Position numbers and translations under genes: made by a program | IMG/VR virus record: IMGVR_UViG_3300010296_001488 | Span: 1-23,626 of that record | DNA: 23,626 bases | DNA from: a virus | Reading direction: 5' to 3' (one strand) | Shown here: positions 2,457-20,461 of the stretch, one piece after another | Position numbering within the stretch: the stretch's first letter is position 1 | Layout: each line of letters begins with the position of its first letter | Notes under the pieces: generated by a model | Seen by the model: only the letters and a program-made list of their open reading frames with translations | Told to the model about the DNA's origin: nothing | Databases searched by the model: none

Positions 2457-5400
2457 ATGCCTCTAAGTAGATTAGAAAATTTCCTAAAGAATGCTGAAGG
2501 TAATATTCTGTATGTAAACCCTTCAGACTTCGACGCCACGGATAGTTTTGAGAACAGAGGTAACTCTCTGACTAGACCATTCAAGACGATTCAGAGAGCG
2601 ATTATCGAGTCCGCAAGGTTCTCGTTCAGAGCAGGTAGAAATAACGATAAGATTGATACTACAACAATCCTCGTTTATCCTGGAACTCACTATATTGATA
2701 ATAGACCAGGTTATTCGATTCGTGATAACGGCGGAACTGCTGAAATCAAGAAACTTGTTGACAAGAAGTGGACCACGATTGGTGCATCTCTAACAGAATT
2801 TTCCGAAGATTCTAACTTCGATATCTTCGATGAAGACAACGATCTATTCCGCTACAACTCTACTGAAGGTGGTGTAATCCTACCTAGAGGCACATCTATT
2901 GTCGGTCTTGACCTCCGTAAGACTAAGATTAGACCACTATATGTGCCCGATCCACATGATGATCAGGTTCTCCCAACTTCTATCTTTAGAGTTACTGGTA
3001 CCTGTTACTTTACTGCGTTTAGTATCTTTGACGCAGATCCTAACAGATCCGCATATAAAAATAGTTCAGATCTGAAGGTTAATCCTTCTTTCTCTCACCA
3101 TAAACTTGCTGTATTTGAATATGCAGATGGTGTAAATGATGCGATCTTAGATAATGTTGATATGGGGATCACTGATCTCGATATGTATTATGCTAAGGTA
3201 ACTTATGCATTTGGTTCAACATCTGGACGCCCTCTTGCCAACTATCCAGTAGGTAAAGACTTTGAACCTCTTGTTGATGAATATAGAATTGTTGGTGATC
3301 TTCGTGCCGATCCTATCGGTATTACCTCCATTAAGGCGGGTGATGGTGCTATTCCTACCACAACTATCACAGTCACCACTAGCGAGGCGCACGGACTCTT
3401 TAAGGACACGCCTATCCTCCTTAGTGGTATTACCACCAACCCAGCTGTATATAATGGTTCGATTGTTGTTAGTGATGTTGTTAGTAACACCGAGTTTACC
3501 TATACTGCTAGGACCAACCCATCAAATCCACTACCAGCATCTTCTCAGATCTCCAATGCTCAGGTAGTTGTTGAGTCTGATTCGGTATCTTCTGCATCTC
3601 CATACATCTTCTCATGTACTTTGAGATCCGTTTATGGTATGAACGGAATGATCGCTGATGGTAACAAAGCGACTGGATTCAAGTCGATGCTTACCGCTCA
3701 GTTCACGGGTATTTCCCTCCAGAAGGATGATAATGCCTTCATGGTATTTGATGACACTACCCAGATCTATAACGATAACGATACTGCTCCAGAAGAACAG
3801 AAACCATTACACATTAACTCTACCGCACTCTATAAGAGAGGTTGGGAATCTACACACGTTACTGCAAAGAATGACTCTATCATTCAGTGTGTTTCGATCT
3901 TTGCTATCGGTTTTGCAAGACACTTTGTTGCAGAAACTGGTGGTGACATGTCTATCACCAACTCCAACTCTAACTTTGGTGCAGTTGCTCTCGAATCAAC
4001 TGGATTCAGAAACGAAGCATTCGATAGAGATGATGTAGGTTATATCACTCACATTATTCCACCAAGAGAACCAGATCCTCGTGAATCTAACATCACCTGG
4101 TTGTCTCTTGATGCAGAAAAGATTGTTTCTGCTGCACAAACTGAAAGACTATATGTATTTGGATATAACTCTAAAGACGTTCCACCTTCTTCCCAGATTG
4201 ACTCTTACAGACTGGGTGCAAAGAGAGGTGAGGAGATTAACCTAGAAGTTATTATTGGAACTGAGAAGAGTAACTTTAGATCTCCAGTTCTAATGCCAGT
4301 TCCTTCTGGTATTGGTACATCTTCACAGAAAGTTTATAGAGTCGGTAGAAATGCTGGTATCAATAGTATTTCTCAGTCTATCTTCACTCTGACTGATGAT
4401 CACCAACTATTCAATGGCGAGAAAGTTCGTCTTGTCTCCGATACTGGTGAAGTTCCTAACAACGTTGAACAGGATAAACTATACTTTGCTTTCACAACTG
4501 GACTCAATGCAGACCAGATTAAACTTTCGTCCACTCTGAATGACACTATCAATGGTACAACCATCGGTGGTATTTCTAACAATGGTGGTGAACTTAGAAT
4601 CGTATCTTTCGTTGCTGATAAAGATCCTGGTGAACTTGGTCACCCAATGCAGTTTGATGAAGATGAATCTAGATGGTATCTACAAGGTTCCAAATCTACG
4701 GCATTCAACACCATTTACGATGGTATTGTAGGCATCGGAACTTCAATTCTAGGTAATCAAACTGGTGCAACATTCGTAACCAGAAGACTTGATAACAGAG
4801 GTCTAGAAGATCGTCTCTATAAGTTCCGTTATGTAATTCCAAAAGAATTCTCTAATGCAAGACCACCTTCTGATGGTTTTATTCTACAAGAATCTAATAC
4901 AGTTGGTTTTGGATCTGCATCTTATCTGACATCTGCTCTTGCAAATACAACTCAAATTAGAAACCCAACCATCATTACTGATGCAAGTTATGTTGGTCAA
5001 GAAGTAACCATTAGAACAGAAGAACCACACCACTTTGTTGCTGGTGACACTGTTAAGATTAAAAATGTTAGATCTACTAACAACTTAACTTCTAATGCTC
5101 AGATTCCTTTCAATGGTGAATATCCAATTTATAGTGTTCCTTCTACAAGAACATTTACGATTGCTGGTATTACCACTGACCCAGGAACATTCCTGAACGA
5201 AACTAACCAGAGAACCACACAACAACAGGTTGACGCTCTACCAACTGCACAAAGACTTAAGTATAAGGATTCTATTTTCGTCTACAGATCTCAAGAGATT
5301 AAGAGTCTAATCCCTGGTACTGATGGTCAGGATGGTATCTATCTTGTCACTCCTATTTGTGGATCTATCAAACCAATCGATGAGATCGGTTATGGTGTAT

Positions 5401-10131: not shown

Positions 10132-11757
10132 ATGTGTGGGATCGCTGTCGTCTACTCTAAGAAAGAAAAGATTCACCACAACTTAATTAAGATCGCTGAG
10201 AAAGAATTATCTCCCAGGGGTCCAGTATCATCTACCCATTATCTTGGTGATGATGTTTATATGTTCCAGTCTGTTTTGCCTATTCAGACTGAAAGAGTTG
10301 ATGAAGAAAGATGTGTGTATCTTCCACAGAACTTCAAGGTAACTCTTTACAATGGTGAAATCTATGATGATCATGAATATACAAGTGACACCGAGTTAAT
10401 CCAAGAAAGTAAGGATCTTTCTGGTACTTTGAACCATGCAGATGGAATGTTTGCTGTCTGTGTTGTAGAAAGATTCGGAAATTGGTTTGATGTTGCTGGT
10501 TATCGTGATCTACATGGTGAGAAGAGATTATTTTATTACGATAGTCCTAACCTCTTTGTTGTATCTTCTACACCTAGATTCATCCTCAAAGTTATGGAGG
10601 AGTATCAGGAACCAGTTCGTGTCAATGAAGTTGCGTTGAAAGATTATTATGTAACGAGACATTATATTTCAAACTCAACATCAATCAAAGGGATCTATCA
10701 GTTACCAATAGGATCGAAACTTTGTTTTAATGGTTATTCGTCTGTAGTTCCAATCTGGACTCCTAGAAAGTATCTGAATAAAGATCTAACAAAAGAATTA
10801 TATCAACTCACCTATCAACAATACTCTAAGTTTACCCGTGATTTGTTGGTAAAAACTATCAACAAGATGCATGAGAATGTTATGCCTCATGTTGCAACAT
10901 ACTCTACGATAAGTGGTGGTGTTGATTCGTCGATTGTCACTGCAATGTTAGAAGAATCTAGCATTAAGATTCAACGTGCAATGACACTCACTTTCAATGA
11001 AAAGGATCGTGTTGCACTATATGCGTGGAAGTTATTCAATAAACTAAAGTGTAAACAATTAGTACGGAATGTTGATATTGAAGAGTATTATTCTTCGTAC
11101 CTTCATTGTATAGAACAACTCTGTAGTCCTGTCGTTGCACATGATGTTCCGTCTGCAAATCTCATGTATGAGATGATGGAACCTGAGTCTATTTTGTATG
11201 GTGGTGAAGGCGCAGATGAATTATTTCTCGGGTATGAGTATTACAAGAACTGCATAAAATCCGAGTATGCACAACCAATTCGTAATCGATTTGAGTTATC
11301 TTTTGGTCAGGAAATCAATGAAGATTATGATTATGCGTTCGACTTTTTCTTAGATTGTGGGTATAATACCAAAGATGCACATGTTAAAGCATGTTCATTC
11401 GTAGATTATTTCCATCAATTACCTAACTCAACCTTCCAAGTTCTTGACCTTATTGGTTCACATTATGGAATCGAATGTAGGACACCATTTGCTCGAAAGG
11501 AAGTCGTTATCTTTGGACTAAATTCTCCAGTCCATCACATTATCGGGAAAAAACCACTTAACGATATATTTGAAAACTATTTCAAAGTCTATCCATTCCC
11601 TAAACAAGGATTCAGTGGTTATCCAAATGAACTCTATCAGTTTGCTACAACAGATTTTGATAGAAGTAAAAATATCTTCGGTAGTTACGATATAGATAGA
11701 GTTACTGAGTGGAAATACATTAACACTGAGTTCTTTCTGGAGCAATTTGACTTATGA
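10132..11757 (+). CDS. asnB: Asparagine synthetase, glutamine-hydrolysing (class B)
   Basis: Makes asparagine from aspartate, ATP and glutamine. The N-terminal glutaminase starts MCGIAVVY with catalytic Cys2 directly after the initiator Met. It has RGP at 29-31 (family usually RGPD; here V follows), NGEIYD at 74-79 and DGMFAV at 104-109. The synthetase domain has the PP-loop SGGVDSS at 261-267 and GEGADELFLGY near 358-368 (family: GEGADELFGGY), then ECRTPFARKEVV and KQGFSGYP in the right order. Length (541 aa) is close to bacterial AsnB. All catalytic motifs are kept, so it should be active. AAGGA (in GGATAAGGACTAATATG) precedes the start. Cyanomyoviruses are known to carry asnB; supply of Asn for virion proteins, or redirection of host nitrogen, are the usual suggestions. 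Coupled to the next gene by ATGA. Confidence 0.95.
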   Translation: MCGIAVVYSKKEKIHHNLIKIAEKELSPRGPVSSTHYLGDDVYMFQSVLPIQTERVDEERCVYLPQNFKVTLYNGEIYDDHEYTSDTELIQESKDLSGTLNHADGMFAVCVVERFGNWFDVAGYRDLHGEKRLFYYDSPNLFVVSSTPRFILKVMEEYQEPVRVNEVALKDYYVTRHYISNSTSIKGIYQLPIGSKLCFNGYSSVVPIWTPRKYLNKDLTKELYQLTYQQYSKFTRDLLVKTINKMHENVMPHVATYSTISGGVDSSIVTAMLEESSIKIQRAMTLTFNEKDRVALYAWKLFNKLKCKQLVRNVDIEEYYSSYLHCIEQLCSPVVAHDVPSANLMYEMMEPESILYGGEGADELFLGYEYYKNCIKSEYAQPIRNRFELSFGQEINEDYDYAFDFFLDCGYNTKDAHVKACSFVDYFHQLPNSTFQVLDLIGSHYGIECRTPFARKEVVIFGLNSPVHHIIGKKPLNDIFENYFKVYPFPKQGFSGYPNELYQFATTDFDRSKNIFGSYDIDRVTEWKYINTEFFLEQFDL

Positions 11758-13570: not shown

Positions 13571-13633
13571 GCATTGTGACAATCGAATAACCTGCACAGA
13601 CCTCTTGACTTCTCAGTCGAGAGGTTTTATATT
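13569..13633 (+). promoter_or_regulatory. Promoter with overlapping hairpin ahead of the helicase operon (cassette G)
   Basis: TTGACT (13605-13610), 17 bases, TATATT (13628-13633): the best sigma70-type match in the early region. The -35 is in the left arm of a hairpin (13600-13610 with 13615-13625, loop TCTC, one wobble), and the right arm runs into TTTT, so the element also looks like a terminator for the preceding genes. The first 16 bases (13569-13584) recur with one mismatch at 18913. Confidence 0.75.
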
Positions 13634-13659: not shown

Positions 13660-14844
13660 ATGCAACTCCGTCCCCATCAGATTCGCATCCTTGATCGTAT
13701 GCGGAACTACAAGAAAGGTAAGATAATTGTTCCTACTGGTGGTGGTAAAACAATGTGCATGATTCAAGACACCGCACATTCTCAACAATCTAAGTGTGGT
13801 TCTACCACCATTGTTGTTGCTCCTCGTATTCTCCTTGCAGAACAACTTTGCAGTGAGTTTCTGGAAGTTCTGAACGTAAAATATGCCCATGTGATGCACG
13901 TTCACTCTGGTGAAACTCATCACTTCTCTACTACTAACCCCGAGAAGATTCACGTCTTCGCTAACACTGCCCGTGAGGTGGGTGAGGATGTTCTGATCTT
14001 CACTACTTACAACTCACTGCAACGTATTGCTGATGCAGATATTGAAGTCAATAACATTTACTTTGACGAGGCACACAACTCTGTAAAGAAGAACTTCTTC
14101 CCCGCGACTGAACATTTCAGTGGTGAATCTGATCGTTGTTTCTTCTTCACTGCGACACCAAAACAATCCCTTACTCACAAGAAACCAGGGATGAATTGGG
14201 GTCATGTTTATGGTCAGACTCTGGTCAATGTTCCTGCTCCTGAGTTGGTTGAAGGTGGTTACATTCTTCCTCCTAAAGTTGTAGTCAAACAACTGGACAT
14301 GGTTCAAGATAAGATGAAAGTCTGGTCCCGTGATTGTGACTTTCTGATGAAGACTATTGATGATCAACAGACTGAGAAAGTTCTGGTCTGTGCTCGTACT
14401 ACGAAACAGATTATTGGTCTCCTGACTGACTCTGACTTCCGTACAGATATTGCATCCCGTGGTTTCTCTTGGATGACAATCACCAGTAAGACTGGTGCTA
14501 TCATTGATGGTAAAAAAGTCAATCGTGAAGTCTTCTTCGATACTTTGAACGCATGGGGGAAAGATCCTAACAAAAAGTTTGTGGTTCTGCATCACTCTAT
14601 TCTGTCCGAAGGTATCAACGTCAACGGACTGGAGAGTGTCATTTTCCTCCGCAATATGGACTACATTGGTATCAGTCAGTCTATCGGTCGTGTGATTCGA
14701 TTGGGTGACAAATCTAAGACTTTCGGTCTTGTCTGTGTCCCTGTTTACGACTCTGTGGGTATCACTACTTCCAAGAAAGTTCAGGCGGTTGTTGATACCG
14801 TCTTTGAAAAAGGTCTCCCTGCAATCTCTGAAATCCGTCGATGA
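13660..14844 (+). CDS. Superfamily 2 DEAH-box helicase
   Basis: 394 aa with the full SF2 motif set: RPHQ near the N-terminus (residues 4-7), Walker A PTGGGKT (25-31), motif Ia VVAPRILLAEQ (52-62), Walker B/DEAH (136-139), motif III TATP (164-167), and motif VI QSIGRVIRLG (340-349) with the arginine finger. The arrangement matches the ResIII/UvsW-like branch that uses ATP hydrolysis to remodel DNA or RNA. At 394 aa it is shorter than T4 UvsW and lacks an obvious extra N-terminal domain, so it is probably a distinct phage SF2 helicase. It leads a three-gene ATGA-linked operon under promoter G. Helicase activity is very likely; substrate (branched DNA, R-loops or RNA) is not predictable here. 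Confidence 0.92.
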   Translation: MQLRPHQIRILDRMRNYKKGKIIVPTGGGKTMCMIQDTAHSQQSKCGSTTIVVAPRILLAEQLCSEFLEVLNVKYAHVMHVHSGETHHFSTTNPEKIHVFANTAREVGEDVLIFTTYNSLQRIADADIEVNNIYFDEAHNSVKKNFFPATEHFSGESDRCFFFTATPKQSLTHKKPGMNWGHVYGQTLVNVPAPELVEGGYILPPKVVVKQLDMVQDKMKVWSRDCDFLMKTIDDQQTEKVLVCARTTKQIIGLLTDSDFRTDIASRGFSWMTITSKTGAIIDGKKVNREVFFDTLNAWGKDPNKKFVVLHHSILSEGINVNGLESVIFLRNMDYIGISQSIGRVIRLGDKSKTFGLVCVPVYDSVGITTSKKVQAVVDTVFEKGLPAISEIRR

Positions 14845-18912: not shown

Positions 18913-18977
18913 GAGCAATGTGACAATCTACGTGCTGCACACTGATCTCGCCAACGGGATCGGTGTGTCTGTATAAT
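18913..18977 (+). promoter_or_regulatory. Promoter with long overlapping hairpin ahead of the nuclease/methylase pair (cassette D)
   Basis: GAGCAATGTGACAATC (18913-18928) repeats the start of cassette G. A 14-bp hairpin follows (18937-18950 with 18955-18968, loop CCAA, three wobbles). The -35-like TCGCCA (18948-18953) sits in its tip, 18 bases before a consensus TATAAT (18972-18977). In this position the hairpin could also terminate upstream transcription or be an operator. Confidence 0.7.
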
Positions 18978-18998: not shown

Positions 18999-19565
18999 AT
19001 GCAAATCTCCCACGTTCCTGGTGTGACTCGCGTTGGTGAAATTACACTTAACGGGAAAGAATACAAGGGTAAAAAACATGTCTTTCACAAAAGGAAACTT
19101 GCACTTGATTATGATGCAAACTTTCCTAAGGAGTTGAAGCGTAAACACGTTTCACTTGTTTATATTTTCTGTGTTGATGGTGAGATATACAAAATTGGAC
19201 AATCTTCCTGCGGTACTGGTATCGAAGGTTGCATGGGTTTCTATCTCAATTCAGGTACAGATGACCCTGGCATTAACAGGTTCGCGATGAATTTTCTGAT
19301 TCGTGAGAAACTTACTGCGGGAAGTAAGGTTGAAGTTTATATGATTTACATGGAACCTATTGAAGTTGAGGTTCCTGGATTGTTCAAAAGTCAGAAGATG
19401 GTTGTGCCTGTGAGTGCAAAAGGTATTGAAGAAACTTGTCTTTCGCAGTATAATGCTATTGAAGGTTGTGTTCCTCAGTGGAACTTTCAGGAAAATGATG
19501 ACACAATCCCTGACCACATTCATGAAGCATTCGGACAATACAAAATCGACAGGAAGGTAAAATGA
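18999..19565 (+). CDS. GIY-YIG-like nuclease, possible restriction endonuclease, 188 aa
   Basis: The central part reads VSLVYIFCVDGEIYKIGQSS (51-70), matching the two-strand core of GIY-YIG nucleases (VY...x10...YKIG). A helical segment with Arg follows (GINRFAMNFLIREKL), then EVYMIYME, and later EETCLSQYNAIEGCVPQWNFQ (144-164), which has the expected glutamate-helix and 'G..P.wN' end of the fold. The exact metal-binding set cannot be fixed by eye. An N-terminal 50-residue extension is basic (KEYKGKKHVFHKRK) and could contact DNA. It overlaps the methyltransferase gene by ATGA. GIY-YIG restriction enzymes of this size paired with adenine methyltransferases are known (the Hpy188I type), so an R-M role is plausible; a homing or repair nuclease are alternatives. 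Confidence 0.65.
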   Translation: MQISHVPGVTRVGEITLNGKEYKGKKHVFHKRKLALDYDANFPKELKRKHVSLVYIFCVDGEIYKIGQSSCGTGIEGCMGFYLNSGTDDPGINRFAMNFLIREKLTAGSKVEVYMIYMEPIEVEVPGLFKSQKMVVPVSAKGIEETCLSQYNAIEGCVPQWNFQENDDTIPDHIHEAFGQYKIDRKVK

Positions 19566-20461
19566 AGACACCAATTCGATATGCTGGTGGTAAATCTAAA
19601 GCATACAACATTATCACCGAATACTTACCTAAACTCCCGTATCCTGAGAGAATCATTTCACCATTTATTGGTGGAGGTTCGCTTGAATCTAGGTGGTCAT
19701 CTGAGGTTGGAGTTGAAGTAGTTGGTTTCGACATTTTCGATGCACTGGTGAACTTCTGGCAACAACTTCTTGCTGATAGTGATGCACTCGCGGATAAGTG
19801 TAGGACGTTGGTACCTACCAAGGAAGAATATGCCCGAGTGAAAGAAGAGTTAATGTGTTGGGATTATACTCAAGATATGTTGAAAGATTGGTCAACTAAT
19901 CATTACAAACGCGATGCGAAAGAACTTGATAACTTAACTGCTGCAGCATACTATTACTTTAATCATAATCTTTCCTATGGTCCGATGTACCTGGGTTGGA
20001 TGAGTAAGATCTACCAATCCCAAACAAAATGGGATCGAATGGTGAACAATATCCGTGCATATAAGAACCCTAACTTCTCAGTGAAGAAAGGAGACTTTGC
20101 AGAGGTTATTGATAGTCACTCCACAGACTTTTTGTATCTCGATCCTCCGTATTATTTGGAGAAAGATAGTGATAACAAAATGTTGAAGGGGATGTATCCG
20201 AACTGCAACATTGACGTTCATCATAGTGGTTTCGATCATGAAAAGTTGAGGGATTTGCTACACAATCACAAAGGTAGTTTCATCCTCTCGTATAACAACT
20301 GCGAGACAATCCGTGAGTATTATGCTGACTTTGACCTCTACTATCCTGAGTGGCATTATTCATATCAAGCAGGAGAAACTAGGGTCGGAAAGTATAAGAA
20401 AGAACGTGGAGTCGATCACAATAAGAAAGAGTCTCATGAGATTCTCATCGTTAAGGTTTGA
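19562..20461 (+). CDS. DNA adenine-N6 methyltransferase (Dam/D12 class)
   Basis: Transfers methyl from S-adenosylmethionine to the N6 of adenine in duplex DNA. Class-alpha order is clear: motif X PIRYAGGKSK (4-13), AdoMet-binding PFIGGGS (34-40), an internal domain with AAAYYYFNHNLSYGPM (127-142), and catalytic DPPYY (194-198). At 299 aa it is close to Dam/T4 Dam in length and keeps all key motifs, so it is probably active. The target sequence cannot be read from the protein; the recognition part (residues about 70-170) differs from E. coli Dam by eye. It is translation-coupled to the GIY-YIG-like gene, which is why it may be the protecting half of a restriction-modification pair, or simply mark phage DNA against host enzymes. 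Confidence 0.93.
   Translation: MKTPIRYAGGKSKAYNIITEYLPKLPYPERIISPFIGGGSLESRWSSEVGVEVVGFDIFDALVNFWQQLLADSDALADKCRTLVPTKEEYARVKEELMCWDYTQDMLKDWSTNHYKRDAKELDNLTAAAYYYFNHNLSYGPMYLGWMSKIYQSQTKWDRMVNNIRAYKNPNFSVKKGDFAEVIDSHSTDFLYLDPPYYLEKDSDNKMLKGMYPNCNIDVHHSGFDHEKLRDLLHNHKGSFILSYNNCETIREYYADFDLYYPEWHYSYQAGETRVGKYKKERGVDHNKKESHEILIVKV

Follow-up and report, generated by a model that had tools for sequence, protein, structure and literature searches.

A probable Type II restriction-modification pair in a cyanophage fragment, with a nuclease that is exchanged in related phages beside a conserved methylase

The window examined here is the whole of a 23,626-nucleotide (23.6-kb) IMG/VR fragment. Over the stretch that holds the two genes of interest, it is 97.4% identical to Synechococcus phage S-SCSM2R, in which both genes are annotated, as an endonuclease and a DNA-adenine methylase; it is because of this relatedness that the window can be labelled as part of a lytic cyanophage. 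The locus comprises the following features.

18999 to 19565, plus strand: nuclease gene (putative R component), ATG start, 188 amino acids; GIY-YIG, Hpy188I / T4 EndoII group
19562 to 20461, plus strand: methyltransferase gene (putative M component), ATG start, 299 amino acids; alpha-class (MethyltransfD12) N6-adenine DNA methyltransferase
19562 to 19565, plus strand: ATGA start/stop overlap of the nuclease and methylase genes, 4 bases shared
about 18937 to 18968, plus strand: hairpin with a 14-bp stem upstream of the nuclease gene, z = -5.7 versus shuffles
18948 to 18977, plus strand: promoter-like site TCGCCA-18-TATAAT with 10 of 12 matches, just before the nuclease gene

The two open reading frames, their overlap and the long hairpin had all been pointed out in the initial annotation, and each is present as described there, the hairpin being a strong one. 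Overlaps of the four-base ATGA type are common to most relatives without a third gene, and translation of the nuclease is probably coupled to that of the methylase in this way. The pair had also been credited with its own promoter. This claim stands less firmly: a promoter-like site is present, but promoter-type sites in the region are not clearly in excess of chance (16 seen versus 10.5 expected, sd 3.1). Because several relatives carry a terminator-like hairpin and then a promoter-like site at the equivalent place upstream of the nuclease, the pair may reasonably be supposed to be transcribed from a start of its own, and the hairpin at 18937-18968 possibly insulates it from upstream transcription. 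In some of these genomes the two signals overlap, so that the -35 box (TTGAC) lies inside the hairpin, which often has a T run, and the -10 box follows 17 bases on. Such elements lie 5' of the nuclease gene at L006:4951, L007:4951, L011:4949, L022:3951, L111:2211, L128:3420 and L129:3421, and another lies at position 13605 of the window, before a helicase gene at 13660.

Both genes are under purifying selection. By the Nei-Gojobori method, dN/dS for the nuclease is 0.02-0.15 against most relatives and 0.37 against locus L002, and for the methylase it is 0.05-0.09 where computable, with several of the more distant pairs near synonymous saturation. Given these low ratios and the same gene order in phage relatives, the two reading frames can be taken as real genes rather than chance ones. 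Elsewhere in the window, an open reading frame at 10132-11757 resembles asparagine synthetase or glutamine amidotransferase (start MCGIAVVYS), although its sole match is a PHROG of unknown function.

The nuclease is predicted to adopt a GIY-YIG fold. An AlphaFold2 model, for which the 27-sequence family alignment also used in the profile search of the PDB was supplied, reached a pLDDT of 95 and a pTM of 0.89. The top Foldseek matches of this model were T4 EndoII (2wsh, E 7.4e-06) and Hpy188I (3oqg, E 1.3e-05). With VIA-align, the model was superposed on T4 EndoII with a Z of 12.9 (125 residues, rmsd 2.6), on Hpy188I with a Z of 9.3 (116 residues, rmsd 2.5) and on the GIY-YIG domains of UvrC with a Z of 6.3-6.7. 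In sequence searches of the PDB, Hpy188I was the sole match of the single sequence (phmmer, E 0.16) and the best match of the 27-sequence profile (8.7e-06, with EndoII at 7.5e-04). The comparison with Hpy188I made in the initial annotation was thus right, although the closest solved structure is that of T4 endonuclease II (DenA). PHROG_1111, an "endonuclease" family, matches the nuclease at 4.8e-23; since the same family scores T4 DenA at 2.3e-65, the nuclease belongs to the EndoII family. No Pfam or NCBIfam model matched it, and the PADLOC model REase_II gave a weak match (0.0072).

The active site is likewise preserved, so the structural check suggested in the initial annotation speaks for the reading given there. 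The VY...YKIG motif noted earlier is real and consists of V54-Y55-x9-K65-I66-G67, in which Y64-K65-I66-G67 forms the YKIG. The predicted catalytic residues are Y55, K65, Y82, R94 (an alternative arginine), E144 and N162; Y55 and K65 align with Y63 and K73 of Hpy188I by phmmer, and E144 with E149 by the profile, the Hpy188I numbers allowing for 10 extra residues in the PDB chain as inferred from the published numbering. Among 34 relatives less than 90% identical, Y55, K65, G67, G74, Y82, G127, E144, C147, P159, W161, N162 and E165 are invariant, I66 is kept in 33 and V54 in 31, and the residue preceding K65 may be Y, M, K, L or another. The YIG tyrosine of the EndoII type is therefore absent, position 65 being lysine in all 34. 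Opposite R84 of Hpy188I, at position 78, these relatives have threonine or cysteine and never arginine; instead, every one of them has an arginine at 93 or 94 (R94 in the window protein), positions that correspond by sequence offset, rather than by structural superposition, to 104/105 of the R.HpyAORF481P branch discussed below.

The downstream gene encodes a complete D12-class methyltransferase, as had been proposed. The Pfam model MethyltransfD12 matches residues 7-267 of 299 at 1.2e-26 and covers profile positions 1-252 of 253, and the motifs RYxGGK, FIGGGS and D194-PPY are intact, with DPPY kept in all 88 full-length relatives examined. The best PADLOC match is a Type II methyltransferase model (1.3e-85). 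Dam-type (GATC) specificity was not supported, as the score against the Dam model TIGR00571 (60.1 bits) falls below the curated cut-off of 114.85, and the name Dam should not be taken to imply GATC as the target. Most cyanophage "Dam" proteins among the matches listed share only about 25-28% identity with the window methylase, which forms a clade apart from them, and only distant relatives were found in plasmid records. As for the target sequence, GTAC (41 versus 81 expected) and AGCT (5 versus 21.5 expected) are both scarce in the window, but neither was accepted as a candidate, for the counts are too low and the possible causes too many. A search for literature on the specificity of HP0481 / M.HpyAORF481P yielded nothing usable.

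These features place the pair among systems already predicted. Kaminska et al. described the R.Hpy188I family as having an unusual active site in which lysine replaces the YIG tyrosine; within it, a branch named after R.HpyAORF481P carries its arginine at 104 or 105 rather than at 84 and is usually accompanied by an alpha-class methylase (Kaminska et al., 2008; PMC2630997). In Table 1 of that work, a nuclease of cyanophage S-PM2 was placed in this branch and paired with M.SspSPM2ORFAP as a predicted restriction-modification (RM) pair. The S-PM2 genes (YP_195273 and M.SspSPM2ORFAP, or Dam, YP_195035) are the same as those of the window and stand in the same order, and divergence is the sole difference, the nucleases being 70.6% and the methylases 75.3% identical. 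Because the S-PM2 record begins at the overlap of the two genes, the operon is hidden in its annotation. The window pair shows the GIY-YIG fold, (I/V)-Y-x9-K-I-G with lysine, the catalytic glutamate, arginine at the alternative position and an adjoining alpha-class (PF02086) methylase. On the strength of the S-PM2 identity and the presence of every testable branch feature, it is assigned, within the R.Hpy188I family, to the R.HpyAORF481P branch.

Two known enzymes provide points of comparison. R.Hpy188I from Helicobacter pylori, which recognizes TCNGA, shares with the window nuclease the GIY-YIG fold, the equivalents of Y63, K73, Y88 and E149, and the lysine in place of the YIG tyrosine. Unlike R.Hpy188I, however, the window nuclease has its arginine in another loop and asparagine where Hpy188I has Gln169, and the methylases differ in class, M.Hpy188I being gamma (PMC2630997). 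The "Hpy188I type" of the initial annotation is accordingly correct for the family and not for the sub-branch, and the target of the window pair need not equal TCNGA. T4 EndoII is the enzyme of a T4-like phage, the closest solved structure and a member of the same PHROG, but it keeps an ordinary YIG tyrosine (VYIGKT) and has no partner methylase. In T4, EndoII starts the breakdown of host DNA; together with EndoIV, it attacks DNA containing cytosine, while the phage's own hydroxymethylcytosine DNA is spared (PMC6071114).

The association of the two genes extends well beyond this fragment. A phage carrying both halves had been singled out as unusual; the pair is indeed present, but the window phage is not the only one, since it was also found in cyanophages S-PM2, Syn30, Sf-CH11 and S-SCSM2R and, with the gene order reversed, in bacteria. 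In 11 of 11 phage records with the nuclease, the methylase lies directly downstream. IMG/VR yielded 36 loci when scanned for the nuclease and 80 when scanned for the methylase, and the genome collection gave 22 bacterial methylase loci. Since loci of different scans overlap, each distinct methylase gene was counted once, L126 standing in for its twin L123. About 54 of the viral genes so counted have at least 1.5 kb of upstream sequence, and there the neighbour is a GIY-YIG nuclease in 40, a nuclease of predicted HinP1I fold in 8 and neither in 6. The position beside the methylase is held down to about 30% nuclease identity, bacteria included. A nuclease is present at all 18 bacterial loci L028-L045, being HinP1I-like in 15 and GIY-YIG in 3; across whole bacterial genomes, PADLOC REase_II proved too weak to map the nuclease family. 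The two genes are not strictly tied, given that no nuclease could be recognised upstream of roughly six methylase loci (L104, L126, L132, L148, L149 and L155) and that, in one nuclease lineage (L070, L072 and L079), the methylase was not found within the available sequence.

The alternative neighbour of the methylase, which accounts for 8 viral loci and 15 of the 18 bacterial ones, is a different protein, mostly of 217-272 amino acids. No convincing Pfam, PADLOC or NCBIfam match was obtained for the members scanned, and iterated HMM searches joined the phage and bacterial proteins in one family. Its structural model (pLDDT 87) matches HinP1I by Foldseek at 8.6e-07 and by VIA with a Z of 14.6 over 191 residues, followed by MspI (Z 9.5) and, lower, by NhoI, HhaI, DpnI, MvaI and BcnI. 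A PDB sequence search with the family gave no real match, so the likeness to HinP1I is visible by fold alone. This nuclease, absent from the window and present in L101, L105 and most bacterial relatives, would have a restriction-enzyme fold of PD-(D/E)XK type, unrelated to GIY-YIG, and stands beside the same methylase family.

At least 8 switches between nuclease types occur on a quick methylase tree. One change can be followed at close range in phage contigs L101 and L102. Their upstream flanks are 83% identical up to L101:2224 / L102:3428, and their methylase regions are 93.6% identical from position 4001 in both; between these flanks, one contig has a HinP1I-like gene and a third gene, the other has a GIY-YIG gene, and the two cassettes are unrelated. 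The breakpoints coincide with the start of the nuclease gene and with the methylase ATG. As read from the aligned contigs, this is an exact, in-place swap of a nuclease cassette. Third genes also stand between nuclease and methylase in other phages (L067:2338-3327, L105:3039-4004, L116:2918-3991 and L078:4583-5713). They fall into three families, namely T1 (DGQHR-like, phrog_2558), T2 (phrog_2615) and T3 (no family), and T1 accompanies both nuclease types.

Taken with the family assignment, these observations make it very probable that the two genes form a phage-borne Type II RM pair of the R.HpyAORF481P branch. The methylase would place N6-methyladenine on a short sequence in the phage DNA, and the GIY-YIG nuclease would cut that sequence where it is unmethylated. 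The data show the fold, the intact active site, purifying selection, linkage and nuclease exchange; from these we infer the activity of the two enzymes, a target common to both and the purpose they serve. Their likeliest use would be to attack DNA that lacks the methyl mark inside the infected cell, be it the host chromosome, the DNA of competing phages or both. An attack on the host chromosome would amount to an EndoII-like role, in which methylation acts as hydroxymethylcytosine does for T4. More tentatively, and with a little less than even confidence, marine T4-like phages may carry an interchangeable cassette of fixed methylase, swapped nuclease and optional third genes that performs host-DNA breakdown of the DenA/DenB type. 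In this proposal, the swapping is shown by sequence, and the role in host-DNA breakdown is a hypothesis.

Among the other explanations, that of a GIY-YIG homing endonuclease which landed beside a lone methylase, raised in the initial annotation, is the least credible. Homing enzymes of this fold do occur in T4-like phages, I-TevI in the td gene of T4 being one example. The window nuclease, however, lacks room for a separate DNA-binding domain, since one fold makes up the whole model and residues 1-163 of the 188 align to EndoII; it has the Hpy188I-type active site with lysine replacing the YIG tyrosine, and relatives as distant as about 30% identity, also in bacteria, hold the same place beside the same methylase. 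What speaks most strongly for an RM unit, and against a homing nuclease with a lone methylase, is the exchange at that place, as neither a homing nuclease nor a neighbour by chance would be likely to be replaced so exactly by another restriction fold. The homing reading was therefore rejected on fold, position and swap. It is also very unlikely, if slightly less so, that the unit is decayed or inactive. Kaminska et al. wrote that members of the family "are or used to be" functional (PMC2630997), which leaves room for decay, but the genes are full-length, their catalytic residues invariant and their dN/dS low in many lineages.

Somewhat more weight, though still little, can be given to the view that the nuclease acts alone on host DNA, as an enzyme of the EndoII (DenA) type, and that the methylase happens to share its operon and serves separately in anti-restriction or regulation. 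T4 EndoII is the best structural match (Z 12.9), shares its PHROG with the nuclease and itself works without a partner methylase, and the nuclease lineage and the methylase loci that lack each other's partner fit such independence. It is harder to reconcile with a pair that stays tight in many phages and, in reversed order, in bacteria, or with a HinP1I-fold nuclease replacing the GIY-YIG one at the same place; moreover, a phage without known base modification would presumably need a way to spare its own DNA. A considerably more serious possibility, if one held at less than even confidence, is that this is a true RM unit selected for the exclusion of co-infecting phages or for selfish upkeep of the locus, and not for host-DNA breakdown. 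It departs from the preferred explanation solely in what the enzyme is used for. Exchange of cassettes among close relatives fits an arms race among phages, so exclusion of rivals could be the reason for nuclease swapping, and selfish behaviour of Type II systems has been discussed (PMC2630997). The relationship to EndoII leans towards an attack on host DNA, though the results as a whole fit either use.

A pair of a DenA-fold nuclease and a guarding methylase bears on an older question. A 2010 review noted that cyanomyoviruses lack the genes denA, ndd and denB and asked about an undescribed route of host-DNA degradation (PMC2984593). In phages that carry both genes, a subset of the cyanomyoviruses, the Type II RM pair favoured here would be such a route, so that the question becomes directly testable in cultured S-PM2, Syn30, S-P4 and Sf-CH11. 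A further caution is that a gene named "Dam" in such genomes may encode the protective partner of a restriction enzyme rather than a regulator acting at GATC. A search of the open-access literature on published phage-encoded restriction pairs found no relevant paper. New here are the nuclease of predicted HinP1I fold beside the same methylase and the exact, in-place nuclease swap; nuclease exchange over a fixed methylase illustrates how phage restriction units evolve.

A few loci have other neighbours. At L104:3117-3989, a second, distant D12-type methylase lies directly upstream of the methylase, where the nuclease would be. The 642-kb uncultured phage LR756502, without the nuclease, has a 191-amino-acid protein of unknown family after the methylase (L023:4901-5476), and at L148:4954-6025, also without the usual nuclease, two genes follow the methylase, one HNH-like and the other GIY-YIG-like but of a different kind (GYLYLAT...FKKFGIA). 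In a Sericytochromatia genome, the GIY-YIG partner is split over two open reading frames (L035:4856-5448), possibly because the gene is broken or the sequencing was in error.
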